Shown piece by piece: positions 6,201-59,766 of a stretch of DNA of 64,000 bases. Both the position numbers and the translations under genes were made by a program. Under the pieces are notes generated by a model that saw nothing but the letters and a program-made list of their open reading frames with translations, ran no database searches and was not told the origin of the DNA. The DNA is from Watersipora subatra (Eukaryota; Bryozoa; Gymnolaemata; Cheilostomatida; Watersiporidae), in the NCBI RefSeq assembly GCF_963576615.1, contig NC_088708.1, positions 67,062,672 to 67,126,671 on the forward strand, given 5' to 3'. Every line of letters begins with the position of its first letter. The stretch's first letter is position 1.

Positions 6201-9200
6201 CACTTTGTCAGACGTTCGCTCTCATGGCTGTGGCCAGTGCATCGTACGGTCTTTTTTCTTGTAAGTCTTTTTCTATAGCTTTCTTTACTAGATGTTTGAT
6301 TTTACCAGCATCTCTAAAGCTGTGTCTACACTTGCTTATGAAATGCTTGAAGATGTTAGTTGAATCCTGCACCAACTATATTGTATCATAATGAACCGCA
6401 TAAGCAAATAATACAAGTGATACATTTCATAGTTTTTACTTTTTTCTCATTGTCTATAAGAGTACATGGCTCTAAGCAATCTTTTTGTGCAATTTGGAGG
6501 TCAAGGATGTATATTTTATTTGTCTGGCAGGCAACACAGTGCGTTTGTAGACCCATTATAGAATGGTATCGATCGATTTCTTTGTTTTCTCATAAATATT
6601 TGCTTAAATTCTTCATTTTACCCAGCTGCAAGCGATTTGCAAGTTTTCAAATGGTAACCCTATTAAAGCTCTGCAAAACAGCTAATTCTATTGACAACCA
6701 TCTTCTTACAGAAAAATTACAATTTTTTTAACACAAACATTAAATTTGGGTAGTTTCTGGCTTTATTTTTATTTTATGTTTAGTTAAACACAAACGCTGT
6801 CTGATAAAAACGCAATAAAGGGTACAGCAGCAGCTGCTTTCATTTTCCTTGCTGAGCTAACCAATCAAGTGTGAGGTCTGAGCAACATCTGCAATGTTTA
6901 GCCTATGGCAGAGAGAATTTTTTTGGTTGAAAATTGTTTGTAAATAAATTGTTTACCACATTTTCTAATCAAAGTTGCAGTAGTGTTTGTAATAACAGAG
7001 ATCTGGTAAACTTTGTGGTACATTCTTGGTACACTTGGTAGTACTTGGTACACATGATAGTACTTGGTACACATGATAGTACTTGGTACACATGATAGTA
7101 CTTGGTACACATGATAGTACTTGGTACACATAGTCCAATGATGAAAGTCATTTGACTATGATGTTCATCATTGGACATTATAATTATAGTCATTGCAAAC
7201 TGAAACTACACTCTCTGTGTGTTAGTCTTCTCTGATTCGTTATTGTAACGGAATAATCATCTGACAAACTAAAGATGACCAATTTAAGTTTTAACCAATA
7301 ATTCGACCAGATTTTAATCGACCAATAATGAGTAACTGCTTTGAATGGTTGGCAGACCCAATTTTTATCAAAATCTCTTTATATTATTAAACATTTGCGC
7401 TGCTTCAATTGCAGGCGCTGCTTTTAGACTTGTTGAAATGTGTCAGCAATAATGACAGAGCTATAACTTCAAATTTGTTTGAATTGGTGCTCTAACTTGC
7501 TAACTAAGGCTTTGATTCATTGTGATATCAAGTTAAGGAGAGAGTTAAAAGTGGTCCAAGGTGCACAAGTATGAACGAATGTATGTTGCAGCAGTACTTA
7601 GTACTAGTCTATTTGCTTGTCAATTCGTATTCAAGAGTTTCTGGTAACATCACAACATCTACTTAAGTGGTATCTTCACTACCAGCTGACTGCATATGAA
7701 CTATCTCTAAACATGTTTCTTATATGATCACAAGTGACATGTTTCTTATATGATCACAAGTGAAATGTTTCTTATATGATCACAAGTGACATGTTTCTTA
7801 TATGATCACAAGTGAAATGTTTCTTATATGATCACAAGTGATGTTTTCTTTACTAGCGATGTGACTTTATTTGTAGCCACCTTTGTGTCTCTTACTCCAA
7901 TTATAATGTGTGACCTCATTGGCCTTGAAAAGTTGACCAATGGCTACGGACTACTCTGTCTCGTCAGAGGTATCACAGGCATTGCTGGGCCTCCGCTAGA
8001 AGGTGAACTAAATTGTAACTTTTCTGCCTCATGGTCTGTCAGGTTGTTTCAACTTTATTGATTTTTGACACTCTTTTTAAGAACTGAAACGTACATTCTA
8101 CACACTGCATAGTCCACTTGCTCCAAACTGCCTTCCATCATAGAATCCTTAACTATTCACTGGTCTGTAGTGTGTGTCTGGAGTTATTCTCTCTCTGAAG
8201 TGCAGAAGCAAGGCAGTTTTTTACTCTCTCATAGTTATGAGTTTTAGAGGAAACAGTGCAATCTGTAGTATTGCTGTTTACAATGGTTGGCACACACGAA
8301 TCCACTTGAAGTATGGCCATTCGTGCTGAAAAAGATGCAGAAAGCAGAAATATCTTCACTTTTTTAAAAATGCAGTTTGCTTTATGAGAAGCTATTTGTT
8401 ACGTTGAAAAATAAGATTGTTTAAAAATAGCCATTTATTTACTAGCTGGTGTGCTCGGTTAGCAAAGGCTTTTCTTATTCAGCTCCATCTAGCAGGCTTA
8501 ATCGTTACACAGACATACTTGCCTGCAGAGCACCTGCCAGTGGTTGCCAGTTATTTGCTCCCACATGTTAAGTTCATTGACTGATGTAATGATGAGCGCA
8601 AGCTGAAAGGAGTGACTTGTTCAAACTAGTTCAGCACTGCAGTACTGGCACCTTGCCAAAAACATATCTTTGCTCTCTGAAATAATTCAAATGTTGGTTA
8701 TATATTTGTAACAATATTTATAGTCATACACTTGTGTTTTGCTGTCGACTAGTGTGAGCCTTAACCACTTTCGCAGGTAAAACAGGTAGTTTGCAGTCTA
8801 CAAATATCTATTAAGTTCATTTCTTCCTTTTGTACAACCGGTTTAAACTGGTTACGCAATCTAGTTTTTAATTCTTGCATCATTTTGTTGACGCTAGTTG
8901 GGTGAATAATCGTTCATATCTCTTGGTCAATACTCAATAGTTATATCTGTTCTTGTTCAAGTGCAGGTATTTCATGTCAGGACTTGCAACTTTCACTTGA
9001 GAAAGGTTTTTCATTGCTGAGCTTTACACTTCTGTGAATGTACTTGCGTCCTAAACACCTGTGATGTGATACGGTAAATATCATGCTCTGCGTATGTAGT
9101 CATAGCCTCTACTTGTGATTGCCTTAATACATGACTAACACTGCATAAACTTTGAACACATACTTGCCCTTAAGCAGTAATTAATTCCAGCCTACATCGC

Positions 9201-13775: not shown

Positions 13776-16700
13776 ATGGAGGAAGAGGCAAAGAACACTG
13801 TGCCCGACCTGAACGGTTTTAAACTTCACAGTCTACAAAAAAGAGGCAATGAGTCAGGATCTCTTTTACAAGAGAAGGTCGCAGATGAACCAGACACAGA
13901 GATACCTGAAGACCTTGAAGGTAAGCCTTCCAAAGGTTTATAAACCTACTACAGCCCTTGGTATTCATGATCTTGCGTGTGTATCTATGAACAAAGCTGA
14001 CCTTAACGCTTTTTTGCTTCCACTTTTGAAATGGTCAGTTAGGGTTCAAACTTTTTTGTTAATTTCTCTCAACATAGTACGGCCAAACAATATATACACT
14101 AATATATTCCAAAGTAGTGTGTTAAAGCTGCCAAATAGTGCTCAATGAGTGATCAGAGCTTAAATATAAAATTTATTCATGTATGGTTTTACATGAATAA
14201 ATTTTATATACACTAATATATTATATTGCTGCATTTGGGCCATTTGTCTTATACTTTACTGCAATCCATACGAACAGAAAATGTTGTTCAACAATGCCTT
14301 TCTTATAGCCAGTGCGCTACAATACCAATTTAGCCAGGAGGTAAGCTTGAAAATATTTATTTATCCTTTAGATGACCTACAAAAGTGGTTTCGATTTTAT
14401 GACTGATCTGACTCAATATTTGAAATTTAAATGATTTTTAAAACCGCCAATCAGCAACAGCCAGTACACATGTGAAGTCATACACTTTCTTGGTCATATT
14501 TGCAAGATCTGTATTTTATTTCTGATATAGCTTTTTGATAAATTTTTATGTTTAATCAATATTTTCATAGGTGTGTTTTTTGAAACTTAAGAAGTGTATC
14601 ATTGATGCGCCCTATCTCAGCGGATGAACCTAAAATATGTACATCATCATCATATGTACTTCATCTTCTGTTTAAAATACTCTTGTGTTTAACACATAGA
14701 TATCAGCCTCATTAATACCTGTCTCATTCAAAGCTTACTGGATTACTTTTATTCTTGAACGACAGCAAATAAAGGTCAAGGGCGTCCTAAATGTGTAGTA
14801 AATGAACTCTTTTGATTTTTCAACATCATGTTGAGTTGCACGCTCTCTAAGTTTAGTCGGTTAGATACAGCGGATATGATCAGGCCACTTTCAGGGTGAC
14901 AAGCTGATTTTTGTAGAAAAATTCTGCGTTTTTGAACCCATTTAAAAGGTGACTATAATGGCAAGGCTCTTGAGTTCTCTTTGTTCCAATAAATAATGAC
15001 GGGGCTTTTTAAACATACTCTGCTAGGTTGAAAGAAATGCTTCGGGCATTTTAGGACAGCAATAATCTTCAGAGATGTCGGCCTACATTATGAGTCTGGT
15101 TTTTAGTCGAAGTACACTGGGAGGACTACATACCTGAGCCACCGGATGGAGGATGGGGCTGGGTCATAATGATTGCCTCATTTTTCAACAACTTCTTAGT
15201 TGATGGCATCGCTTACTGCTTTGGTGTGTTTCTTGCTGAATACGTCGAATATTTTAACACCAGTGTCGGCAATGTCAGTCTCTCCAGTTCTCTTCTTTGC
15301 GGTTTCTACTTGTTTGTCGGTGAGTGTAATCGTATTTACTTGCCATATTATTATCAATATAAGTTGCTTTTGGATTTCCTATGCATAGCCTAGAGGACCG
15401 CAAAATTTCAAAATATCAAAAGATATATTATATTTATCATAGAATATGGTACGCAATAAGCATCTAAAGAGCAGCTCTAGGCTACTGGTCTAAAACAGCT
15501 GATCTGTGAAGTGCAGGTCGGGGTTCAACTCCAAAAAAGGCCTCTAGTGGTGACAGGAACTAAATCCTGCCTCAAATTGCTCTTTACAACTGGGCATGTC
15601 TCTAGTTGTCGAGGTTCCCTTGTCACTGGACATAGACATGACTAGCCAAGATCATAGAGACATTAATTGCGTCAAAAATGCTCTTAAAACTTGCACAGCC
15701 TCTGCTTGCAGTCAGATAAGAATATGTCTTACTCAATCTTCGAGGAATCGCTCACGCAGACGAGCATCCACGTAGTCCTCCGTATCTACATAAACTTGGA
15801 GTTATCTTCCGCACACAACTTTCAGTGTGTGACCAACAGAGTAATTAGTCTTGATAAGCTGTGAACAAATCCAATAAAAAATTTTTGCGCAATCACTAAA
15901 TGCGTTTATTACGCGACAAGGGTTTGGTTATCGTAGCCTAAAAACATTGAAATATTTATAAAGATCTGTCAACGTATCTTAGTCGCCTCAGTTATTATAT
16001 AGCCTCATGTATTCTAACAAGGCAAAAGCGACTATAATGTTCGTAAAATTGTGAAGCATACTCGAGTAGAATGCAAAGTTCTCATGTGTGCCACAATTGC
16101 GTAACCCTACGTGCAGTAAATCGAAAAGCACCGTAGTTCAATGACTTACAGCTGTAACCAAGATTAGCTCTATTAATTTATTGTAACAGTAATAGATTGA
16201 TTGTTGTTATCTGGTAATTGATTCCTGGCTTGTTTCTGATGCACTGTCAACCAGTAACAGGTAGGGTGCACCTTCCAACTTTCATCAGGTGCGATATTTT
16301 ACTCTAAAAGTTGGTGAATCCAAAGATTTGTGAAACGATAATGCGGAATATGTATTCCACATACCTACCTTTTTAATGTATATATGTCTACCTTCATACA
16401 TGTCTTAAATTTACTAAATATATTCTTGCATTTCTATTGAATATATGTCGACAGTTGTAACACTTGGATGAATAAAATTGTTTCTTCACCCCTGTTACCC
16501 TGAGTAGATGATAATGTCTACCCAAGGTCTGGTCTTCTACCAAAGACCTGGAAGTTTGAGCACTCGCATCAAGATCTTAGCCTTTCCCATTAACATGCTT
16601 TTCTGAAACTGACTTGTGTTGGTTGTTGCCGGTATTCGCACAGACTACATTTGATGTGCACGCGTTTATTACACCCAACTATCTAATGACTACTATGGAA

Positions 16701-19700
16701 TATACTTGCTCTTATATGCCAGTACCTTTCAATCTCCTTTCTGAGTAGCAGATATTTTTTATTGAAAAAATAACTAACTTTTTACATGTTTATCAGTCTG
16801 TTAAACTTGTACTGATACCTTGTATCTACTCCTGTCTTTTTATCAAATATCAGCATTTGTTTTGTTAAATACTCTCATACCTTGTTTCCGCAATACGGAA
16901 ATAAATTCTTATGCTACATATACCTGTTTATTTGTCAGCAAAGTTCATATTTTATATACTCTTAACTTATCGATTCTTTCTGAAAAAGTCTGTACCGCTC
17001 TGTCCAGTATCTCATAAGGTGGTCTTGTAAACTAGTGTCTGGCCACTCTAACGGAACAGTTTTGTTTATTATATTGTGCGTCAGTTCTTTATTCACGTAG
17101 CAAAGCTTTTCTTCCATTCGTAATAGCTCTTTTTGTCTCGTCATTTCACATGCGAATTGCACACCTTTTAGGCTCTCAGTTATTCAAGCAAAGACCCTCA
17201 CTCTTCTGGGATATTTCAATATGGCAGCTCCAAGTTTTTTCTGTTGAAAAACCCTAGCTTTCTACTATTCATCTGAGAAGTGTCATGCAAAGTCTGATCC
17301 AACCGACATCATGTATGCACTGTAAAGATTTGCTCGTAGAATAAATTCAGGCCATGTTTATCAAGCCAGGCTCATGACTTGTTTGTGAAAAGCAGTTGCT
17401 AGCATTGCATAACTAACAACTCAAAAACATAAGCATGGCTAACTATTTTAAAATGAAGATACAAAAGGGTATTATCACGCTCGAAAGATCATGCATATGT
17501 AACTTCATTAGTTTTAGTGATTGCATAAAGTCTAGTCTCAGAGAAATGTTGATTCTATTGAACAAAAGGTCTCACAATGTGTTGAGTTTGGATTTGCACT
17601 CATTTTCTTCCCAAAACTTAATTTTAAAGTCTCTAGAGATGATTAAGGGGCAACTCTAGAATATGTTTATTTTCTATTTATATAGCCAACAAATTGGCAA
17701 AATGTTGCCCAGGAGACCTTTGGTGAAACCTGCCTGTAATTCATCTTAATAATTCTGAGTGTACTTCCTTTCTAAAATCTTCATGCTGCTGGTTTTGCGT
17801 ACATATAACCTGCCACACAATTGTGCTGCCTGCTAAATGTAAAAGGCCGTTCTTTTGAGGAGATACTTTAGATTATCTTGGAGATGAATTGTGCACTACA
17901 TACAACTAGCCATAATAAAGTTATAAATGTTAGCTTGTAACAGCAATGACAAGGTTTATCTGGATTTATTGCGTAGACTCTTATATGAAGGTTATCAAAT
18001 AGCTGTTGCAAAACTCTTTCTATGTCTTTTAAACAAATATGTTGATAAAGTTGATGTAAGGCACTATAATATCCTTATGGTAGTTCTGTTGCAGTGTGAT
18101 CATTTCTTTGCTTGATAATAACATTTTCAAAACATTAGAAGTCATGCCATAAATTCATATAATGATCCAATATTGCTGAATCATTAAGTAAGACTTTATT
18201 ATATTCAAATACTCATTACTTAATTTGTCTCATTCATGTAACTTTCAGTTGTTCACTCTACATTTTGACGACTCTCAGTTAACCCGGTATGACTTTGTAC
18301 GATCGCCATATTGTATAATAACAAACCGCTACAAATTAATACTCGTTTGTCTTTCAAAGAATTGTCTTTCTGCTATAAAATTTTTAAGGCTCATTCTCCA
18401 TTCTAGAGATTCAGCCTAAATAGGCAACATTCAACTTTATTTTATACTGTAAGTTGTTGCAGCAACAGATATATTTGTAGGTTGCGGTTGTTTCCAGCTA
18501 GCAATATATGTCAGTTCACCTATTGAGTATGTTAGTAATATAGTAGTAGATAGAGAGAAGCTATCTCTCACTGTCTGCTAAAAGTTGATTCAAATAAAAC
18601 AAGTAGAAATCCACTCACTGTAAACTCTACCCCGTCTTTCCATCAAATATGCTTGCATTCTAGTATGCTAACAACATTGAGTTCAGTAAGAGTTCTAACA
18701 ACATGGCCAACAAGGTAGTGAACCATTTGATGTCTGTTATTACTTATTACTTGTATATAACCTGATGGAGCATTTTTAAATATTAAATAAAAATTAGTTA
18801 TCCACTTTGCTAAAAAACTGTTCTAAAAAAACTTCTTTAAAAGTACATTTGGGTTGTAATACGTATTGACTTTTTATTTATACTTTTAAAAGAAGCAGTT
18901 TGCATTATCTTGACTTGCACCATTGAGATAAGTGATGTTATAAATTGTTCATTGCACAGAAATGTTTGCAGGACCAGTAGTAGCCGCATTCGTAAACAAG
19001 TGGGGCTGCAGAAAAGTTGGGATAGTTGGAAGTCTGATCGCTACCTCCGCCTTCCTCATCAGCACTTTCTCCCCCAACATCTTTATGTTTCAGTGTACAT
19101 ATGGAATCTTAGGAGGTGAGCTGGTTTCGTTACTTATTTGGCAAGCTCAAAATATGGCAAACAGGTGCTTCTACCGATATCCAATGGCTAGTTGCCATTT
19201 AAACTCTTAGTCCGCTAGCTTGCACAGTCTGTATGTGTAACGCAGTTGGATCACAGTTAATGCAAGAATTTGGCAATTTTTAGTTTGAATTTTGTTCTGT
19301 CAGAAATTTTGGCTTTCTTATCACTCGTGTGGTAGCCGCATTTAGTGACCAAATGTTTCATTTTAAGGATTCGGGTTTGGTCTCATGTACCTACCAGCGG
19401 TGGTCGGAGTTGGCTATTATTTTGAAAAGAAAAGAGCCCTAGCAACTGGCATCGCTGTCTGTGGCACTGGGATAGGTACATTTGCAATGGCACCTCTGGC
19501 AAAGTACACACTAGATGAACTGGATTGGAAGAACTCACATTATGTCCTTGGTAAGTAATTGCTTTACTGGTTGAGCTGAGAGGAAACATATCGTAAGGTC
19601 AGAGCTTCTAGATACAACTGAATCTAGCTACAAGGTGAATGTCACTCTACTTTCAGAATGAACAAAGTTTTTTATGTTTAACCTAATCCGAGCAAGTTTT

Positions 19701-22700
19701 ATATTTCTTGCAGTAAAAAGTATGGGTGCTTCTAGACTGCTATGTATTAGAGACATAATGGTTGCAGGCTTGTGCAGATAACAGATGTAAGCAGTTAAAA
19801 TTAGGGTGCTTTCAGCTAACTTTTGAGAGAGCAGACATTTACTTCTGATTATATTGGGACATAGCTGTGCTGTCTTATTTAATGTCACTAAAATCAATCA
19901 AATATCAAACTCCTTTAAAGCCCAATTTGCAGTCAGGCAGTTTTTTAAGATCAGTACCAGCATGTTATTTACAGTGTATTTCAAAAGCCAACCAAGTTTA
20001 AATGCTCCTATACGCGGGGACAGCAATGATCAATCTCGCAATATCTTCAGCTGTCCTATTTGTGTGATAGCGTATCTCTTCGGTGAATCAGAAAGCAAAA
20101 TTCCATCTCACTACTGACCGTAGATAGATCACAGTCGAGTGCCATCTTATTATGTTATTAAAATCTCCTGGTGCATGCGGCGGACCCCTGTGGTTTCCTG
20201 TCACAGATATATATTATCAATTATATGATCTATTTAATGAATTAAGGAGCCAAAGCTGTTGCAATAGTAATCTGCTGCACACGTTTCACGTACCAGTGAG
20301 GCATGTAGATGATACGTTGTGTCAATTACGTAGGTTTGTCAATTCATTTGTGCCGCTTAAATTCTTGAGAAACAATGCTAAAGTTATGCTGAAGGGTTAG
20401 TGAGTTACTAGGTGATACTTGTATTACATGTTGTATAGGTCACATATGTGTGCGTGTGAACATCTGTGGGGTGTTAGCTTCTTTATTCTTGGTTATTAGC
20501 TGATGTCTTCAAGTTTTTTTGCGTCAAAAGCAGCGAGAACAGCTTTGATTTTTGAATGTGTTTATTTATTTAGGTAAAAAATATTGCACAACCGTAGAAC
20601 AAATATGAACATACTGTGATCAAAAAGCTATAGCCCACAGTTGTATTTTCATGATTTGCTCTCATTATAGGGATTAGGGGATTAGGGATTAAGAGGCTAG
20701 AAATTAAGAAGCTAGGGTTTAGGGAACTTGAGATTAGGGGGCTAGGGATTAGGGGACTATGGATTAGAGAACTAGGGATGAGGGGACTAGAAACTAGGGA
20801 ACTAGGGATTAGAGGAATAGGGATTAGAGAACTAGGAACTAGGGAACTAGGAATTAGGGGACTATGGATTAGGGGACTAGAAATTAGGGGACCAGAAATT
20901 AGAGGAATAAGGATTAGGGGACTAGGGATTAGGAGGCTAGGGATTAGGGTACTATGAATTAGGGAACTAGGGATTAGGAGGCTAGGGATTAGGGTACTAT
21001 GAATTAGGGAACTAGGGATTAGAAGACTATTTATTAGTGGACTAGGGATTAGATGACTAGAGATGAGAGGATTAGGGATTCAGTGACTAGGGATTAAAAT
21101 ACTAGAGATTAGAAGACTAGGAATTAGGGAACTAGGGATTAAGGAGCTAGGGATTAAGAAACTATGCAACAGTACTTCACAACCCTTAAACAATTAACAA
21201 GATACAATCAAGTTTGTTGTGATGGAGAAGAGTATGAACGAGCTACCGCAAATCTGTAAAGAACTCCAAAACTTATGAGTTCTGCAGCTCTTATTACTGA
21301 TTTGTAGAGCAATAGAAGTATACCTCCACCATTGACATGAAGTAGTGACAGATGCTTACTGGTTTCATTTTATGTCAATGCCAGTCAACAGTGTCACATT
21401 TGTCTAGTATATCAAACACATTTCAGCTGGCCTTCTTCTACAAGGATGCGTTTTTTCTGCTCTCATGAGACCTCTGACAGCACGAAGGAAGATAACAAAA
21501 AACAGCTATGACAAATCTGATGATAAAAAGCCACTAACAGATTCAAGGGAGAAACCATCAACCGCAATTAAAAATAGAAGGTACTTGCAAAATCTTTCTC
21601 CCATTTTGTAAGGTATTATATTGTGCATTTACAGCAAGAGTTTGCGCGCGACTCTTTCGAAATGGGTAACGCGATTTTTCGTTTCATAGCTATCAAACAA
21701 GCCCTCGGGATAAGTAAATGAAGTTTCATTTTTTACCGGAGCAGATCTGCTGATATCAACCAGTTTTTATAGTTTAGACTTTGCTTAGACTGTTTATACA
21801 ATTTATGATTGTTAACTTAAGATACTTAACTAAATTGGCCTGGTGCGTACAACACAGGAAGTCACTAGTACTCTACAACAATTATAAAGCAAAGCAAATG
21901 ACCAACAACCAACTCTGTGCCCAAGACATCATTTTATTAATCTGGTCAATTTAGCAAACCTTCATTTTGTCAGTCGGATCAATTCACCCTAATTTTAAAT
22001 ATCATATTATAATTCAATATTAAAGGGACTTTACGCAGTCCAGTCACACACTGAGGGTTGCTGAGAAAGTTGGCTCAGTTCAGAGACTTCATGCTAGCGC
22101 ATTCATTGACACGACACAAAGAAGTTTCAAAGAACTAACTGAGGATATGGCAAGACCCATGTACAGAAAGGACATCTTCTTCAGCGGTTCCATTTGTAAC
22201 ATACCAGGATACAAAACAACAGAAAATAATGGTGACAACGCAGAAAGAGGTGCTAGTGTCATGAGCCTTCCATCAGAGGTGAGTTGCCACAGCAAAATTA
22301 GCTACATATTTTGTCTGCATGCGTTTTACGTTACTTTATTTGTTAGTGCTGTAAAGCTAACTTTAAAACTAAACAAGTATCATGATAAATTTTAGCCAGA
22401 GTTGTTTTAGCTCAGAGTTAAGTCTTAAGAGAGCTTGAATAAGCGCTGCCAGCTCGGCAGTCAGTTGGAACCCTGCAAATGTACCAGGGTTTCAAGGTGA
22501 TGCTGATTGTCATGGTGCTGACTTGCTCATTCCCGGAAAACATGGGTATTGATTTCACTCACAAAAATTGAAGAAAAATCAAAATTTTGTTTTTACGTCT
22601 GAGATTTAGTCCTAGTTTCTCTAAAAATCCAATGGGGTGAGCACCATATTTGTTAAACTCACTAACACAGGTAAAAAACTAATTTACCAAATTTGTGATT

Positions 22701-25700
22701 AAACAAAGTGTTTTAATTGGTAAAGCGATGCATCTAGGTCAAAAACATCTTCAAATGCTGAAGAATACAGCTAAACAGAGACAACTATAAATATTACATA
22801 CTTTGTTATTGAGTGATAATGATATCAATGATATAAAAGTTCTGTTGCCGCTACTGCGCCACCTGGATGGTCATATAACACCGGGTAATACTTAATCAGT
22901 GATAAAAACAGTGCTTCGCTATTAGCCATGATGTTTAGAAAGCTTCACCTGTTAAGTGCATTTAGAGAAAGTTTTGTCAGCAACTCCTTCGCAAAATTTT
23001 AACAGCGTTGAACTTTTGTGATCACCGCCAGCAGCTAATAGTGGTATCCAGAGAGTAGATTCCCATTTCCTTAATGATGCATCGATAAGCCTGGCACCTC
23101 TATTTCGAACTATATGGGAACCACCCATAACAATTATGTTTAAGTTATTTTTATGTGCACTTGTTTCTAAAGAGGCTCACTTTACCAAGACAAAGGTAAA
23201 TTCGTACTAAATGCCAAAAAGCTCAAAAAGACTTCTGCTTAAAAACTTTTGCGACATTTAGAGTAGTACCTCATATAATTGGTGAAACTCTAAACAGCTC
23301 TTATTGTCCATATACGTGTATTGCAAGTTAAATTATCTTTTTCAGAAACCCCATGGAAGGCTTTCCTGTCTAAATTCTCTGCCTAAACCAATGGCCGATG
23401 TTTTGGCAGAGATGCTTGACCTGGACGTCCTTGGCAACAAATCCATGCTTGCATTGTGCCTCGGCAATCTTTTCGGAATGCTTGGATTTTATGTACCTAT
23501 TCTTTTCTCAACAAACAGGGCTATGCAGAAAGGTGTTGACAAAGAGAAGGCTGCATTGCTGCTATCTATCATGGGTAAGAGATGAAAAGTAGTTCCATAA
23601 ACCACTAGTAAAATCTCCCAATGCCTTTTTGCCACTGGTTTTGTGCTGATATTACAAAACTGAAGTCAATTTTTGTTATTTCTGTAAGATATTATTTTTT
23701 CTGTCAGACCAGTGAGTTTTAAAAACTAGATTCAAAAAAGGACAGCTACCAAAACATAGTTACGACTGCTATAATGTAATCTGTATAAGGTCACAGGTGC
23801 TAGCAGGTGCTTGTAGATGTGATCCAGATTCTAGTTCAATTATTGCTAATTGTAAACAGGCTACCTACCACCTCGTTGCCCAACAAAATAACATAAAACA
23901 AACAAGCTTAAAATTGTATTTCTAAAATTGTCAACAGTAGCAGTGGTCTCTCGAGTTTGTTTTAATTGTTTCATGGAATGACTTACCGTCTTCACCTAGT
24001 CATAAATATACATTATTCCTTTTTGACTAACTGTGGTTTCGAACAATCACATTCTGAATATGGACATACTGCGAGCAAAAATATATCTGGCACCTGTTGC
24101 AAATGTTCTAAATCAAAGTTTGAGAAAAATGAGGATCACACACAAAGTGAAAGTGAAACTAATATCAGCTACTAACTTGTAGAAACTACTCAAACCCCTA
24201 GTTTGCAAAAGAAATAATCATTTGATAATCAAATAGGAATTTTAGCTTCAATGTTTTGTTTTTCTCTAGTCTGGCTCACCTGAGAATTAAAAAAAAATAT
24301 AGCACTCTTTTATAATCATACATAATTCAAAATTTTTTAAAGATATGAATAGCTAATTTAAAGATCATCACTAATAAAACATATGAACAAGAAGAACAAA
24401 GTGGTTTATATAAAATGATGAAAACCGATTAAAAAGCTTTGAATGTCTATTTGGAGTATATATAGTGATTTTTTGTTAACAACATTGGTAAGGCTTTAAA
24501 TCATTGTTTAAAGTTTGCTAGATTTTTCCAACATTGATCCAACTTTCAATTTAGTCAGGTTTTATTGATTCATATGCTGAGACCATTTAGCTTGTGGTCC
24601 CAGTTGAACTTGTATCCAATACGTGGCTTGTCAAATGTGAAGAACCCCATACCATTTTTAAATGTGCCTATTTCTATTTTTATTCTCTGTATAACCAAAT
24701 TTTCTTTTCAGGAGTTGCTGTTATTCAGGAGAAGATAATTTCTGTAAAAACTATCTTTTGTTATCAGGTGCTTGCAACACAGTTGGCAGGGTGCTCTCCG
24801 GTCTCATGGTTGTATTCATACCTAAGCTTTCTCCTCTAGCTGTAAACAATGCCAGTATCACCATGGCTGGACTAGCAGTTATGCTTACCCCCTTTTGCAA
24901 CACATTCGGTACAATGGCTCTGGCTATAGCTGCCTATGGTCTATTCGCAGGTAAAAACATGCAATCATGGTTGGTTGAAATACAAATAAATTTCTGTCTA
25001 ACCCACTAAACATTAATTTCTAAGGTAACTGGATAATGTTTTACAGCTTCTAACCAGTCTATAGCTGAATTCGTTTTATATATTTCTATATAATTGCTGC
25101 AAGTTTTATTCAATTATGGTAAAAGCTGATTTGTCAGCAATGCATTATGCGTGAGTATACTAAATATCAACATCACGATGAAGGCGCATGAAAACGTATC
25201 AAGTAGAAAAAATGCAATGCTTATTGGCTAAAACGCTATTTACGGTGTTATGAAGATCATACATTCGTCCAACAACAAAAGTGAAAAAACGTGCCCTCAA
25301 ATTCAGGTTACATATATTCCTCCTTTTCAGCAACGTTTGTTTCTCTCGCACCGATTATTATCTGCGATCTGATCAGCTTGTCCAAGCTGACCAATGCATT
25401 TGGACTTTTGTGTCTTGTCCGAGGATTGACTGCCATACTCGGACCTCCAGTTGAAGGTATACACTGGGTGACTTAACAACGACTAACTCCGCTAGTGGCT
25501 TCGACCAAACTGACAGAAATTAGCCTAATCCGAGTTGTAGACTAACATCTGTATCTCTCGCTCTCTTTCAGCATCTTTCATAGCTCTCTCATCCATCTTA
25601 GTATGTGACGCTGTTGGCCTTGAGAAGCTAACAAATGGCTTTGGACTAATATGTTTGGTGCGAGGGATAGCGGCTATGGCTGGACCACCAATAGAAGGTA

Positions 25701-27998
25701 TAGCTATATGACATCGTGATAGCTGCATTACTAACATAAAAAGCCAGCCTGCCTAATGTTGAAACGCTATTGTCTTCGTTGTGTGAATAATTGATTTTGA
25801 GAGGAGATTCTGTGAAGAGGTAAGTCAGAATATTTAAAAATATCTAATCAATTTTGATGTACAAATTTCATCAAGAGTTTTTCATGGTAGCTACTGTTTT
25901 TTATAGAGCATCTATCACTTTGTGAAAACAACTTTGTGAAAACACTTTCTAAAAAATGTACTTTGTGAAGACAGCTCCTAACTTTTTTATACGCAAATTG
26001 ATGGTATGCGACTTTAGAGCTGTACTACTTTTGAGCACACAGTCCAAATTCAGTTTCCGAGCACAATTTATTTCAGAGGGCTCTTTAAAAAAAATTATTT
26101 GAATTCTAAAACGATTTTGCCCATTTCATAAAATGTGTAGGGCCTATATTTTAATTTATTCAAAAACTAGAAAATGATTTTTTAAGCATTTTTACATAAT
26201 TCTATGCCACAAAACCTATATCTTGAAACTTGGTAATATATAAAGTGCACTGAATTTATTCTTAATACTCTAGTAATGGAGAAGATTAGGTGGAGAAATG
26301 TAACTCATGATCTATAGTAGCTCCTAATTCAGTCTCGCTTCTTCAGATGTGCTGTGTGAAGTAAAATAGTGTAGAAATAGCTTGTGTTCTATTCTAGCAA
26401 AGGGTAAAAAATATAACAATACATCAACAGGCTATATCGACCACAGCATACAGTCAATATTCCATAGACCACAGCAATTAGTATTTTATAGATCAAAACG
26501 GTCAGTAGACCACATAGTCAGTACTCCATAGACCACAACAGTCAGTATTCCATAGACTACAACAGTCAGTATTCTATAGACCACAACAGTCAGTATTCCA
26601 TAGACTACAACAATCAGTACTCCATAGACCACAACAATCAGTATTCCATAGACCGCAACAGTCAGTATTCCATAGACCAAAACGATCAGTATTCTATAGA
26701 CCACATAGTCAGTACTCCATAGACCACAACAGTCAGTATTTCATAGACTACAACAGTCAGTATTCTATAGACCACAACAGTCAGTGTTCCATAGACTACA
26801 ACAATCAGTATTCCATAGACCACAACAGTCAGTATTCCATAAACCAAAACGGTCAGTATTCCATAGGCCACATAGTCAGTATTCTATAGACCACACAGTC
26901 AGTATTCCGTAGACCACAACAGTCAGTATTCTATAGACCAAAGCGGTCAGTATTCCATAGACCACATAGTCAGTATTCTATAGACCACATAGTCAGTACT
27001 CCATAAACCACAACAGTCAGTATTTCATAGACTACAACAGTCAGTATTCTATAGACCACAACAGTCAGTATTCCATAGGCTACAACAATCAGTATTCCAT
27101 AAATCAAAACGGTCTGTGTTCTATTAACCACAACGAGCACATCTGCACATATCTGCATACAACATTGAAATAATAAAAATCATATGAAAGAGGATCAGTT
27201 GACAACCAGGCCAAGCCATAAAACCTTTTTGGCCTTCCAAACTTTTGTTGGTCAACTAAACCCTACAAGTCTAGGGTTTTTTGATCAAACTCCAATTTGT
27301 TTGAGATCTGAAACTTTTGAAACAGAAGATTGGACTGTGTCCGTAAAGACCTTTACATGTACTAACATTTTACTATCGTATAGACAACGTTGAAACTGAA
27401 AAAGTATTAGTTGCTGCCCTAGCATAACCACATACTCTCAATTAGCTGACTTCTGCTGTCTCAACTTTTCTAAACTTAGTAATATCTTCTGGCCTAGTAG
27501 CTATGCTTCTGACATTAGGCATAACATCTTGCTTAATTTGATGCGAGCTGCTGTGATACAAATACAATGCTTTCAGCCACATGTATAACTAACATCATTG
27601 TAGTAGAAAATGCTTGAGAATAATTGTGTGATTTGCTTGTAGTTCTTTTCACATACATGTTTATCAACAAAGTTGACTGTTTTTTTCAGATACCTCAACT
27701 TTCTCAATTATTAACTTAAATCATGCGCTTGTTCTCACTTTTCAAGGTTGAGGATTCAGGCAGCTCCAGACAGCCCGACTAGTCCTCAGATGCACAGTTT
27801 AGTGCAGTTAGATATCTCATGCCTAGACTTAGTACCTTGAGGAATTATTTATTTTTAGGAATGTTGTATGACTTGACTGGTGACTATGACGCCACGTTCT
27901 ACATGGGAGGAGCTTGCATTTTAACTAGCGCTGGGTGTCAGATGCTGCTGTTTCTAAAGCCCTTTGCACCAAAAAAGCAAGACAACCTTCAGAAATAA
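13776..27998 (+). CDS. MCT gene 2: complete SLC16-like monocarboxylate transporter, 583 aa
   Basis: Ten coding exons: 13776-13920, 15107-15319, 18972-19115, 19368-19550, 21427-21580, 22044-22278, 23346-23574, 24768-24950, 25331-25456 (or alternative 25572-25697) and 27859-27998 (TAA). The sum is 1752 nt, 583 codons plus stop. Residues 1-48 are an acidic cytoplasmic N-tail. The MCT signature PPDGGWGW opens TM1 at about residue 62. GPVVAAFVNKWG follows in TM2-3, then YFEKKRALATG at TM5. Residues about 245-375 form the cytoplasmic loop with ARPMYRKDIFFSG, and TM7-12 complete the carrier, ending in a short Lys-rich tail. Length is normal for SLC16. At TM8 the Arg of the Asp/Arg pair of MCT1 is kept (NTVGR) but the Asp position is Asn, and the TM1 Lys is absent, so proton-coupled lactate transport should not be assumed. 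It lies in tandem between genes 1 and 3. Confidence 0.93.
14164..14213. repeat. Short hairpin palindrome in gene 2 intron 1
   Basis: TATAAAATTTATTCATGTA is followed after a few bases by its reverse complement (ACATGAATAAATTTTATA), giving an AT-rich hairpin with arms of about 20 bp. Confidence 0.7.
15470..15700 (+). mobile_element. Probable tRNA-derived SINE in gene 2 intron 2-3
   Basis: An A-box-like word (TAGGCTACTGG, about 15478) and a B-box-like word (GGGGTTCAACTCC, about 15522-15534) sit about 35-45 nt apart, as in a tRNA-type pol III promoter. They are followed by a GTGACAGGAA body and a GGTTCCCTTGTCACTGGACA segment. This is an inference from promoter layout; no intact tRNA cloverleaf is expected, and copy number in the genome is unknown. 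Confidence 0.5.
16485..16645 (+). repeat. Dispersed repeat, copy 1 (related to 62955-63115)
   Basis: Shares an ordered series of words with 62955-63115 on the same strand: CACCCC..GTTA, a TCTNCTACCANAGACCTGG core, AGTTTGANCACTCGC, and TCAAGATCTTAGC. On the opposite strand the GTTCAAACTCC-like word resembles a B box, so it may be another SINE family. Confidence 0.6.
20668..21165. repeat. Degenerate (GGGACTAGGGATTAG)n array, unit about 16 bp
   Basis: About 30 imperfect units of the type GGACTAGGGATTAGG in gene 2 intron 4-5. The GGGATTAGGG content is telomere-like in composition but is interrupted by ACTA, so it is not a true TTAGGG array. Confidence 0.9.
25331..25456 (+). other. Gene 2 exon 9a (TM10-TM11 exon, first copy)
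   Basis: A 126-nt exon, acceptor ccttttcag and donor gtatac, entered and left in phase 1. It encodes 42 residues with TFVSLAPIIICDLISLSKL and GPPVE, covering the second half of TM10, the loop and TM11. The same exon in gene 1 (7877-8002) and gene 3 (44180-44305) is also 126 nt. It is followed 115 nt later by a second, diverged copy. Confidence 0.9.
25572..25697 (+). other. Gene 2 exon 9b (duplicated TM10-TM11 exon, probable mutually exclusive alternative)
   Basis: A second 126-nt copy of the preceding exon, acceptor ctctctttcag and donor gtatag, same phase. It encodes ASFIALSSILVCDAVGLEKL and GPPIE. Both copies are fully open with intact splice sites, so either can be spliced between exons 8 and 10. 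Using both would insert 42 residues in frame and add an extra half-TM10/TM11, probably breaking topology. Mutually exclusive use is therefore the likeliest mode. This is inference from sequence; no transcript evidence is available here. Confidence 0.85.
26430..27140. repeat. Tandem array, about 24-bp unit, about 28-30 copies
   Basis: Units of ACAGTCAGTATTCCATAGAC plus CACA, in gene 2 intron 9-10. The unit length gives long spurious open frames on the minus strand (YGILTVVV repeats), which I do not call as genes. Confidence 0.95.
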
Positions 27999-41100: not shown

Positions 41101-44100
41101 AAGGATGCTCAGATTCAGCTCAATCGATTAATGAGAAGTTGTCTGACCCTCCTTCAAATAACAAGTCTCAAATTGGCCAAGGGTCCGTATTACTTGCATA
41201 ATAAATATTGAGATGTGGTTTTTCTCAAGTAATTCATGTTTTAACAGTGTACAACTATTTTTAAACAACTACACGTAGAATTTTACTGAAAAAGTCTCTC
41301 AAACTAGTATATGTTCATGGAGGACTTGCTCAAGTATAGATGATAACTAGTAGGGGCTGTACTGTGCTGACAATCAATTACAAATTTTGCTGTATTTTTT
41401 TGTTTTTATTTGCTTCTAGGCATTTCAGTAAAATTCCTCAGAACAACTGAATAGTGTAGCTGAGTGAATTAGCCATCTAATCAATTTGCAAGTGCTCATC
41501 AGTCAAAATGGAGCCGTGCATGCTCATGTTCAGGTTTCAATCTTTAAAATAGGACAGTTTATAAAAAGTGTGACCACTCAGCCTAATTTGATCCATTTGT
41601 AGATGTTCTCTAGGTAATATTCCCTTATCAAAAGAGAAGATAACTCCAGAAGTTACTGAACCAACAGTCTCCAAAAAGGTTATTTTTTTAAATTGTTAGT
41701 TGTATTAAAGCCTAGTTTGTTTTAGCTGTGCGATGCTGGTTTAAGTATTCTAGCGCAGTAGTTCAATAGTCCAATCACAATCTATGTTGCAGATGTCCAA
41801 TCACAATCTCTGTTGCAGATGTCCAATCACAATCTCTGTTGCAGATTAATCTTATAAAGCTTTTTTATTCGTAAAAGGAATTTGATGAACAACTCTAAGC
41901 TCTCCGAACAAATTTTCCTTTCTCTTTCATAGACAAACAGGCTGTCAGAGAGTCTGAAAAAGGCAGCGTCTGAAATTTTCCATCTCGATGTGCTCAAAAG
42001 CAAGGCTTTGTTAGTTTTAAGCATTGGAAACTTTCTTGGCCACCTTGCGTACGCAATACCTTTGCAGTTCTTCGCTGCCAGAGCCATTGGAAAAGGCATA
42101 TCAGAACAGAACGCTGCACTTCTTGTTTCCTTTTTAGGTAAATTTTTATTTGACTACGTATTTGCTAGGATAGAAGTTTTTATAAATATAGCAGCTTCCA
42201 TATTCTATTTCTATAGGTATTATTATATATGTGCTTAAAAATACAAGATACTAAAACTCGTTCAATATTTTGCCATATACCACTGCATACCATTCTTGTT
42301 TTCAAAAAACGAGTGTTCTAGGAGACAAAACTTGTCCTTTATTTTTTTATTGTGGTGATCGATGAGCATAAAAAGGGTTTGAAGGGACCTGCATGTATCC
42401 ACAAATGAATATACACTCTCAGTAAAAGTGGTCACTAAGTAAAAGATGTGCAACTTTTGGAGACGAACTGCAATCTCATCATGCAAATTATCAGCAACTG
42501 GTGTACATCAAATCATATGACAATCAATTTACAAAAATCACACTTTCTTCTTTATAACACTGATGAAAACCTTCGAAACAGCTTTACTCTTAAGTTTAAC
42601 CGTCAATTCATCACTTGTAGACATGAGACAAAATTGTTAGGATTGGTTTTGACAGATCGACTCTCTTGGAATAATCATGTCGACACTATTTGTAGTAAGG
42701 TCACGAAGTCATTGACTCTGCTCCAGTTTTGCAGGCCATACATGAACTAAAAATCTGCTATTGCATTTTATTATCAGTTTATATTTTGCCATATTATTTA
42801 TGGTATCCACATTTATTATAATCTAGCTCCAAGATATGTCTCTAAGAATTTATTTTTGTTGCAAAAAAGAGCATTTCGACTCATTGCAAATCTATATCAT
42901 ATTCCTGCATATATTATTCCAACAAATGATCTTTCCAAATCTTTGTGTCTTTTTACTCTGCCTGTGCTAAATATTTATTTTACTTCAATTCAATGTTTCA
43001 AGATTTTTCATGGTTTGTATCCTTGTTTTTTACATGACAATTACAGGTTCTCAACTCATTTCAACTTACGTGATATGAACAAATTGCATACAATCACTAA
43101 CAATCATTTTGAAAATGTCATTGCCAGCTGCTTTAACAATCTTCCACCAAATATCCGTTCTCTTAGCAAAGAAAGGCATTTTAAACACTATTTGTCAGAC
43201 TATTTATTCAATTTTAATGGCTAACTGCTGCTTTTTTCCCTTTTTTGTGTTTTACTATTGTTGCATGGCCTAATTTGAAAAAATTTCTATTTGTGAAATG
43301 AAATTATTGCCAATAAAGTACTATAAACAAGTAAGACTGCTTGGCAAATGTTAATACATTGCTTGTTGCTATTATTATGACATATATTACTGTCTTCAGT
43401 ATAATATATAAATTTAACCACAATTCAAGTCTTTCACCATACTACATGTATTATTAGTGCAAATTTGCAGATCATTATATCATATGGCATATGTTGAAAA
43501 CTTCAGATTTTTAACCAGATTAAGCAAGTTATGGTCTATTTGACAATCACTTACTTTACTTACTTTACTTTATTTACATGTACATGTAAGGCTCAGATTA
43601 TTCTCTAGTTACACTTCGCAAGCTTGGAATAACTATTTATGTATGTTCATTTCTATTCCATGTATTTAATATTCCCTTCTCTCCATCGCAGGTATCACTG
43701 GTTCTGTTGGCAGACTACTACCTGGAATAATCATGCTGTTTTACCCTAAAGTTTCTCCTCTCATGTGGACTAATGTATGCCTATTGGCAGCCGGTCTTGG
43801 ACTTATGTTTACTCCTTTCTGCTACACTTTAGCCTCTATGGCTGTCATCCTCGTCATATTATCAATTGGCGCAGGTAACTAAATTAGTATAGAACTGTTA
43901 AACCATATCTTTGTATGCGGATCTTAAATAGTCACTATGATTACTTAATGAAAGCAAGAGTTATTTTCTCATGTTTAATTTATTAAATCCATATACATAT
44001 CTCAACCAAAAGAGCAAATTCTGTGCTACAGTACTCGCTTCTTTCATTTATATAAATGTTTAGTCCTTCAAATCTTAGGTCTCATATAATAGGCTTGTGA

Positions 44101-46526
44101 TTAGGTCTTATATAGCATGGCTAGTTTAGAATTAGATGTAAGATTGATGTGATTAGTTTGGACTATCTGTTCTTTTTAGCTGGCTTTGTATGTCTGACGA
44201 CGATGATAGTGTGTGATCTCTTGGGTGTTGGCAAGTTAAACAGTGGCTTTGGAGTTATCTGCATGCTAAGGGGCATCGCAATGATTATAGGACCTCCTGT
44301 TGGAGGTAATATCTACTATCCAGTAGTTTCAATATCAGTATCGAGTTGATTAGATCAGATCAAGGGTTTGATGTAGCCTTTGGGCTTTTATTTGAGCTGG
44401 CCCTCTTAATATAATAATTGGTTTAACCATCAAAACACTTTAAAGACACAAAAAGCTGCACTTAATTATAAGCATCAATAGGTACTGATAATTATGAATC
44501 TTAATATCAATAAAATAATATCAATCTTGGTTACCACAAGATGTTATACTTGATCAGTCACTGTGTTTTTAGGCACACCAATTGCTTCCCTTGATTGTTG
44601 CGTTTCTTTTGTCTTACAATTTTTTAGCAACACTTACACACATGTACACGTACCGTAAGTCCTTATGCTCAAGCCGCGTAGCCTGTCGTTGAGCGCGGCT
44701 TCTGGCTCAAGGTCATAAGCTGCCGCTAAAGCCAAATTTTTAAAACTTACGTGGGGCTCCAGGCGGCTTCTCGATAAATGCGGTCTTTGTTGAGTTCCGC
44801 GCTATAACCATAGAATCGCAGTCATGATACACTTTTATGTACGGGGTTTTGGCGACATACTCGTTTATTTTCAAGGTCATGTTTATGGAATACTTTACAA
44901 TAAAGAAGAATTTATTGCTCATGTTTAACTCACCGCAGTCATAGGTAATTAACACCTTTTCATTCTTGACTGGCATCTTTCCATAAACATGAAGCCCTCT
45001 AACAGCGCGATAAAAATTGAGCTGAGACATGGCAAATAAGTTATTGATGCAAGGGTTTAGGAATTTGAATTCGAACTTGGGATTCGTTAAGAGCAGCACT
45101 CCGAGGCAGTTCAATTAGAGGTTTTACGAGGTTTTACGGTACTCTGTATATCACTACATCACTCACGCTTTTTGAATGAATACTTATTGAATGTACATGT
45201 ATTCTGTGTTTAGGTCACACGATTAATAGTTTCTCTGCGTGACACAATATTGATTTAGCTAAGACAACGTATACGTTTAATTACAACAATTTTTAAGACG
45301 TTTTAAACATTCAACACATTTTATATTCAATAAGTATCCATTCAAAAAGCGTGAGTGATATAGTGATATACAATGTACCGTAAAACCTCTAATTGAACTG
45401 CCTCGGAATGCTGTTCTTAACGAATCCCGTCGAACTTGGAAGTAAAAGAAAATTCTTTTCATGTGTACTGATGTAGCCTGGTTTCTTATTCAGGAGGATG
45501 GGGGCATATCGAAACCAGTCTTAACACTCTCGCTCCCGAAGGGGGTCAAGGATGACAAAACATCAGTAATTAGCCACGGTCTGTGGGCATACGCGGCTTG
45601 TTGGAGGATGATTTTTTCTTTCGTGAGACATCTGTTTTTGAGCACAAGCCGCGCGGCTTGAGCATGAGGACTTACGGTATACACATACAATTTATATGCA
45701 CATGTAAATCAAAATAATTCTTTTGTGTGATGCTTGAAGTTATAAAATTGTCCTTGTTTTACTCAGAGCCATAATTCAGTCACTCATTTACTCAATGCTT
45801 AATAAAAATATACATATTAATGATAAAAATATACATATTAATAATACAAATATACATATTAATAATACAAATATACATATTAATAATAAAAATATACATA
45901 TTAATAATACAAATATACATATTAAATATAAAAATATACATATTAAATATAAAAATATATGTAATTCATAAATACAGCCAAGTTTTGGCACTCAAAATGA
46001 ATATTAACCTTCAATTTTGTTAAGTGCTATTTTGTGATAAATCCAAGGTTCTGTAGTGTTTGAACTCTCAGAAGCTCGTGTGAATACAATTCTATATAGT
46101 TTATAATTAGCAGTGAATAGCATCACTGAACCAATCTCTTTGTGTAATAAAAAGAACTTTGATATTCCAAGAATACTCTTTTTATCCTCAAGGGGTCCTT
46201 TTTGCTTACAGATGCAAATACATAAAGGTATATGTGTATATATAGACAATCTATGATTTTTATGAATATATGAAGGTATGTGCATATATAGAAAATCTAT
46301 GATTTTTATTAATACAAGAAGGTATTTGTATATATAAAAAATTTATGATTTTTATGAATATATGAAGGTATGTGTATATACAGATAATCTATAATTTTCA
46401 GGCATGCTGTATGATGTAACTGGAAACTATGATGCTACTTTCTACATGGGAGGAAGCTTCTACCTCCTCAGTGCACTATTTCACTGCACCTTGTGGAGCA
46501 GGAAACTCCAAACTTCACCAGTCTGA
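35117..46526 (+). CDS. MCT gene 3: complete SLC16-like transporter, 508 aa
   Basis: Ten coding exons: 35117-35207, 36882-37088, 37226-37369, 38290-38472, 40996-41182, 41603-41678, 41933-42137, 43692-43874, 44180-44305 and 46402-46526 (TGA). The sum is 1527 nt, 508 codons plus stop. An in-frame TGA at 35105-35107 lies just upstream of the chosen ATG. The N-tail is Ser-rich (about residues 1-30). PPDGGWSW marks TM1; GPLVAVMVNKWSSR, YFEKKRTFANG, GSVGRLLPG, CDLLGVGKLNSG and GPPVGG follow in order. Loop exon 6 is only 76 nt and lacks the YRKDIF motif seen in genes 1 and 2, and exon 7 is 205 rather than 229 nt, so the central loop is short. The exon 5 donor (gtccgt) is weak but is the one that preserves phase. 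TM8 keeps Arg, with Gly at the proton-coupling Asp position. Introns hold a LINE fragment, a TIR element and palindromes. Confidence 0.92.
36512..36815. repeat. Dispersed repeat of about 310 bp, copy 2
   Basis: Same-orientation, diverged copy of 31803-32113. It lies in gene 3 intron 1 and ends about 65 nt before exon 2, so repeat-derived sequence forms much of the intron's 3' end. Confidence 0.85.
38693..39670. mobile_element. TIR element family T, copy 1, in gene 3 intron 4-5
   Basis: Homologous throughout to 55618-56781 and 61825-62948. The left end carries CCCATGACCAA and the right end TCGTGGGATAA, diverged versions of an inverted CCCACGACCAAA/TTTGGTCGTGGG pair. It is about 1 kb, with internal deletions relative to copy 2. 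Minus-strand coding remnants (FKVTDIL) are interrupted by stops. Confidence 0.85.
39965..40110. mobile_element. Palindromic hairpin (MITE-like) in gene 3 intron 4-5
   Basis: CTATACTACGTCGAGTGGTA at the left is mirrored by TACCACTCGAAGTAATATAG at the right, with arms of about 65-70 bp meeting in a (TA)n centre. This gives a near-perfect hairpin about 145 bp long. AT-rich palindromes follow at 40117-40150. Confidence 0.85.
42444..43332 (+). mobile_element. 5'-truncated non-LTR retrotransposon (LINE) 3' end in gene 3 intron 7-8
   Basis: Encodes the C-terminal end of a reverse transcriptase polyprotein in one frame: NLQKSHFLLYN, then ETKLLGLVLTDRLSWNNHV (the conserved region after the catalytic palm), then LLQKRAFRLI and a tail ending at the TAA near 43224. 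One in-frame TAA at 42748-42750 breaks the frame. The sequence ends with a short 3' UTR containing GCCAATAAAGTACTATAAAC. It is a dead, 5'-truncated copy of Jockey/CR1-like type; the clade is not certain. Confidence 0.8.
44651..45679. mobile_element. TA-flanked TIR element with nested palindrome in gene 3 intron 9-10
   Basis: Outer ends are TA-CCGTAAGTCCTTATGCTC and its inverse GAGCATGAGGACTTACGG-TA, with inverted repeats of about 26 bp, in the manner of Tc1/mariner-type elements with TA target duplications. A minus-strand open frame (45114-44740, 124 codons) fills the left part and has no recognised domain. The centre (45080-45430) is a second inverted repeat bearing the end sequence of the pogo-like family at 52083. 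Confidence 0.8.
45080..45430. repeat. Inner palindrome with paired pogo-like termini
   Basis: GATTCGTTAAGAGCAGCACT and CAATTAGAGGTTTTAC on the left are repeated inverted on the right (GTAAAACCTCTAATTG, AATGCTGTTCTTAACGAATC). A further inner inverted pair, ATCACTCACGCTTTTTGAAT, surrounds a loop at about 45215-45290. Confidence 0.8.
45800..45965. repeat. Microsatellite-like (ATACATATTAATAATACAAAT)n
   Basis: About 8 units of roughly 21 bp made of AAATATACATATTAATAATA. The open frames on both strands (IYILIIQ / LICIF repeats) are artefacts. Confidence 0.85.

Positions 46527-49602: not shown

Positions 49603-59766
<10,164 letters not shown>

Follow-up and report, generated by a model that had tools for sequence, protein, structure and literature searches.

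Probable exon-swap splicing in an SLC16-type membrane carrier

Exon-swap splicing is a well-known kind of alternative splicing. A set of mutually exclusive exons encoding a membrane helix gives NKCC2 its variants A, B and F, which differ in ion affinity. Splice variants A, B and F of this transporter (SLC12A1) are recorded in the available text of PMC5209364. In SLC25A3 and SLC39A14, neighbouring internal exons of the same frame likewise encode alternative versions of one membrane-carrier segment, with transcript support for either-or use, according to the available part of PMC5740500. Exons are often duplicated in tandem, yet such copies are not commonly spliced in a mutually exclusive way (PMC9741552), and of 6,541 human candidates for mutually exclusive splicing 1,399 were validated, or 855 under a stricter rule (PMC5740500).

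The exon pair described here belongs to an SLC16/MCT-like gene of the bryozoan Watersipora subatra and lies in a 64,000-nucleotide stretch of the genome (C1:67062672-67126671), the whole of which is called the window below. Four genes of the same family have exons in the window: gene 1 (partial, + strand), gene 2 (+), gene 3 (+) and gene 4 (-). In gene 2, the exon for the TM10-loop-TM11 segment was duplicated in tandem long ago. Judged from the anatomy, age and constraint of the two copies, A and B, their mutually exclusive use is the best reading and probably the right one. As in NKCC2, a choice among homologous exons would tune a transporter at its transport path, although NKCC2 has a different fold and three copies, and its case has been demonstrated in tissue. 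SLC25A3 and SLC39A14 belong to other carrier families, and the either-or use that is supported by transcripts there is read from sequence here. The most direct literature searches, made mostly outside subscription papers, turned up no such exon pair in SLC16 among the papers listed.

Gene 2 and its family

The coding exons of gene 2, all on the + strand, are arranged in the order N1–N7, exon A, exon B and N9. N1, which carries the DGGWGW motif, occupies positions 15107..15319 of the window and is followed by N2 (18972..19115), N3 (19368..19550), N4 (21427..21580), N5 (22044..22278; the cytoplasmic loop), N6 (23346..23574), N7 (24768..24950), the cassette exons and the last coding exon, N9, with the stop (27859..27998). 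Two candidate N4 donors preserve the frame, one of which is used here, and several N5 acceptors do so; N5 is uncertain because 20 N4/N5 donor–acceptor pairs keep the frame of the A form open. A start-codon exon was looked for 5' of N1 and was not found. Joined without this first exon, the frame is open in every combination and runs, stop included, to 535 codons with A, 535 with B, 577 with both and 493 with neither. Two introns of the gene contain minisatellites, one of 15 bp x 32.6 copies between N3 and N4 (20668-21156) and one of 24 bp x 26.5 copies between exon B and N9 (26506-27134).

Gene 2 is an SLC16/MCT-like carrier of the major facilitator superfamily (MFS). Both the A form and the B form match Pfam MFS_1, and the solved structures that gene 2 matches best by sequence are MCT2, MCT1, MCT10 and MCT8, with E 7e-52 for MCT2 and 1e-45 to 2e-44 for MCT1. 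The exon B peptide alone had no match in PDB. The monocarboxylate transporter profile NCBIfam TIGR00892 is matched with E 8e-74, which at 248.9 of 586.1 bits is below the curated cut-off. MCT2 and MCT1 (SLC16A7 and SLC16A1), the closest solved structures, have in common with gene 2 the DGGWGW motif and the TM8 arginine (Arg313 of MCT1). They differ from it in three places, gene 2 having Tyr for Lys38, Asn for Asp309 and Ala at F367/F351. Of the residues of the proton-linked carriers MCT1-4, Lys38, Asp309 and Arg313, only the last is thus present, and the Tyr and Asn place gene 2 in SLC16 but outside the proton-linked MCT1-4 subgroup. The equivalent of this Asn in MCT2, D293N, lowers proton-linked transport and leaves counterflow unaffected (PMC7228944).

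The cassette exons

Exon A (25331..25456, +) and exon B (25572..25697, +) are adjacent internal exons between N7 and N9. Each is 126 nt or 42 codons long, in the same phase (1-1), and is bounded by AG and GT; the acceptors read CCTCCTTTTCAG for exon A and GCTCTCTTTCAG for exon B, and the donors GTATAC and GTATAG, respectively. Between them lies a spacer intron of 115 nt (25457..25571, +). Neither exon has a stop, a frame change or a lost splice site, so that, judged on their sequences, both are open and have usable sites. These are the coordinates and numbers given in the earlier note, which had described two tandem 126-nt exons of the same phase, both open and with intact sites, around a 115-nt intron, and all of them hold. 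An AG 24 nt 5' of exon A (25305-25330) would, by eye, add eight in-frame residues without a stop.

The copies are identical at 76 of 126 nucleotides and 24 of 42 amino acids, and this divergence of 40% at the nucleotide level rules out a duplicate created by the assembly. When A and B were compared with the window by tblastn, they matched each other, and three further places gave one homologous exon apiece (E 2e-24 to 9e-13), and the next match after these cassette-type exons had E 0.25. The similarity of A and B is, on these values, far above chance.

The position of the cassette in the carrier can be read from the alignment of gene 2 to MCT1 and MCT2, which is without gaps across it. The last whole codon of N7, for the Ala mentioned above, aligns with MCT1 F367 and MCT2 F351, and the first cassette residue is the one after it, inside TM10. 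Starting inside TM10, the exon supplies the latter part of that helix, the loop and much of TM11. The earlier note's description of it as TM10-loop-TM11 is therefore right as to the loop but applies to part of each helix. In MCT2, TM10 and TM11 both help to line the cavity (PMC7228944).

The cassette start falls between two substrate residues of TM10, F367/F351 and S371/S355. F351 and S355 of MCT2 are part of its proposed substrate site (PMC7228944). In MCT1, F367Y alters lactate affinity and the preferred direction of transport, and S371G leaves kinetics unchanged and makes an inhibitor weaker by one order of magnitude (PMC13265630); in contrast to S371G, mutants of S355 in MCT2 have substantially lower activity (PMC7228944). 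Cassette position 4, aligned with S371/S355, is Val in A and Ile in B, whereas position 31, aligned with E398, is Arg in both. The cassette thus borders the substrate by alignment, and the sole aligned contact that differs does so mildly.

A and B diverge more strongly elsewhere, with Pro/Ser at position 8, Leu/Ala at 14, Ser/Gly at 16 and Ser/Glu at 18. At position 14 it is B that deviates from the common residue (Leu in 16 of 18 other exons), and at position 16 it is A (Gly in 17 of 18). A clustering of the differences around the pore-side helix and loop, as had been suggested, shrinks to a mild skew toward the TM10 side, with 11 in the first 18 positions and seven in the other 24. Through helix shape and the loop, the A/B differences may affect kinetics or preference.

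Constraint and age of the duplication

Synonymous sites differ between A and B at 25.0 of 34.0 and nonsynonymous sites at 25.0 of 92.0 (Fisher p 3.7e-6), and the differences at codon positions 1, 2 and 3 number 18, 4 and 28. Compared with the gene 1 exon, A differs at 26.5 of 33.8 synonymous and 15.5 of 92.2 nonsynonymous sites, and B at 25.0 of 33.5 and 18.0 of 92.5, respectively. Site differences were counted for 21 of the 29 genome places, L020, L022, L023, L025, L026, L027, L028 and L030 being omitted for stops or partial matches. L019, which was off register, was removed before the trees and before the simulation and residue comparison, leaving A, B and 18 others.

The large excess of synonymous over nonsynonymous divergence implies that the duplication is old and that A and B have both been retained as protein. 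When 2000 copies were simulated as drifting freely, with 1.5 substitutions per site, 338 were still open, and the residues alike never exceeded 14 of 42, against the 24 observed. At least nine of ten neighbouring exons of the cluster share the residue in 15 columns; A conforms in 14 of these and B in 12, as expected if both occupy one place in the fold. These patterns indicate that selection on protein held both copies through much of their history. The exon is too short for its trees to separate the possible orders of the duplication and the split of genes 1 and 2: trees joining A with B, A with gene 1 or B with gene 1 are all compatible with the data (p-AU 0.32, 0.45 and 0.36; nine of the 20 exons).

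It is unlikely, though better placed than the other rivals taken up below, that one copy alone is in use and the other is silent or in early decay. Recent silencing would be expected to leave little trace in the sequence, and one copy may have been silenced very recently. The branch-point motif YTNAY was found nowhere within 70 nt of the exon A acceptor, whereas exon B is preceded by one, at -27 in the spacer. A weak acceptor of exon A would fit regulated choice of exons and would equally fit a silent copy. Against silence stand the constraint on both A and B since their split and the intact frames and splice sites of both.

Paralogues of the cassette

The genome searched comprises 783.7 Mb in 239 contigs. 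The exon B peptide matches at least 29 places and the exon A peptide at least 28, A and B themselves being on each list. At least 14 of the at least 29 exon B matches, A and B included, lie within C1 67.07-67.25 Mb, where MCT-like genes form a tandem cluster on both strands; further matches are on C4 and C10. At the 27 exon B match places other than A and B, the 1.5-kb flanks were screened at E up to 1 and contained no intact second copy; the residual weak hits in these flanks (E 0.06 to 0.9) are antisense or short. N6 and N7 each have one match in gene 2 and at least 18 and 16, respectively, genome-wide. Within the reach of these searches, the exon pair is peculiar to this exon of gene 2.

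Inside the window, the tblastn match ranges place the counterpart of the cassette at 7876..8001 (+) in gene 1, 44179..44301 (+) in gene 3 and 49839..49955 (-) in gene 4. There is one copy in each, which together with the 27 genome places bears out the claim that the paralogues have a single exon here. An ungapped BLOSUM62 scan of the flanking introns of genes 1 and 3 for a decayed second copy gave no score above 4. Gene 4 seems to have a damaged acceptor ahead of its cassette-type exon, with TTTTTCG in place of the TATAG of four close relatives, and Val stands where there is otherwise a shared Asp; gene 4 may be a decaying copy, or an alternative acceptor may be in use. A candidate second pair, L026 (C1:67157199-67157306, with one TAA) and the adjacent L009 exon, was rejected; L026 has N7-like and N9-like matches of its own, which mark it as a separate decayed gene copy.

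Some MCT-like matches fall in long open frames, namely L024 (C1:70757224-70757340; 547 aa) and matches on C10 (383-385 aa), and these look like intron-poor or intronless genes, which may be retrocopies. Two adjoining ORFs inside gene 3 (42439-43224, +) resemble, by eye, the end of a non-LTR retrotransposon reverse transcriptase.

The spacer and the exclusion of one copy

Mechanisms that could keep two neighbouring exons apart were examined in the spacer and its surroundings. For steric blocking, PMC5740500 uses a limit of 50 nt between donor and branch point. The spacer has candidate branch points, predicted by motif, at distances of 57, 72 and 89 nt from its donor; the best placed, a CTAAC at -27 from exon B, is the one at 89 nt. 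Five paralogues have introns of 113-116 nt after the same exon, as inferred from exon homology (one of the five is gene 4, with its apparently damaged acceptor), and their candidates sit at -27 from the next exon, at a distance of 87-90 nt from the donor. The suggestion that the short spacer bars the joining of A and B sterically is not supported by these distances or by the like layout in the paralogues, and the spacer looks by these measures like an ordinary short intron. Nor would a shift of frame followed by decay remove a doubled transcript, 126 nt being divisible by three and the joined frame open. The donors GTAAAA, GTATAC and GTATAG are none of them U12-like, judged by eye against the U12 consensus, and give no sign of U2/U12 incompatibility.

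RNA structure gave no clear sign in this single species. Intron–intron pairing was equalled or exceeded in strength by 14, 15, 35 and 58 of 60 shuffles, which is the level of shuffled sequence, and local folds have z 0.68, -0.90 and 0.00. Three possible origins of the spacer were tested against 300 shuffles each. Of these shuffles, 71 scored at least as well when the spacer was taken for a relic of the upstream intron, 253 when it was taken for one of the intron after B, and 214, 182, 19, 186 and 23 when it was taken for one of the short introns of the five paralogues. No clear similarity emerged and all three origins were rejected, two of the five paralogue introns having a slightly raised similarity (19 and 23).

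A looser form of alternative splicing, in which A, B, both and neither occur in mixed proportions without strict exclusion, draws on the fact that the four combinations are all in frame and that no obstacle to A–B joining was found. It conflicts with the fold argument, the exons starting within a helix, and it seems to us quite improbable. Least probable is that A and B are normally joined, giving a carrier with its TM10-TM11 segment doubled from the middle of a substrate helix: the spacer is laid out like the paralogue introns and the 577-codon frame is open, but half of TM10 would be repeated in a 12-helix fold, A and B each keep most family-conserved positions as if filling one place. Such a carrier would be a natural MFS fold variant of which we know no example.

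Mutually exclusive use of A and B is favoured by their equal length, phase and sites, the contrast of synonymous with nonsynonymous divergence, the drift simulation, the conserved columns and the start of the exon in TM10. Where exons end inside helices, skipping or doubling breaks the fold, as argued in the available text of PMC5740500. The same reading is weakened by the failure to find an exclusion mechanism, the open frame of all combinations, the low base rate of such splicing and the mildness of the Val/Ile contact difference. If it holds, each gene 2 mRNA would take one copy, A or B, and two carriers would result that differ only in the segment beside the substrate site, with a likely effect on affinity, rate or preference rather than a switch between on and off. 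Exclusion, if real, would depend on regulated splicing together with selection against a missing or doubled half-helix, and would not act via steric blocking, frame or U2/U12 incompatibility.

Meaning for the SLC16 family

The exon boundary lies one residue past a site that in MCT1 and MCT2 sets substrate size and affinity, and the contact that follows falls inside the cassette. Production of both forms would give gene 2, an SLC16-type carrier, a splice switch next to its substrate site. Ten stop-free places in this cluster have a single cassette; if both forms are made, splicing and gene duplication would therefore diversify the same carrier side by side.
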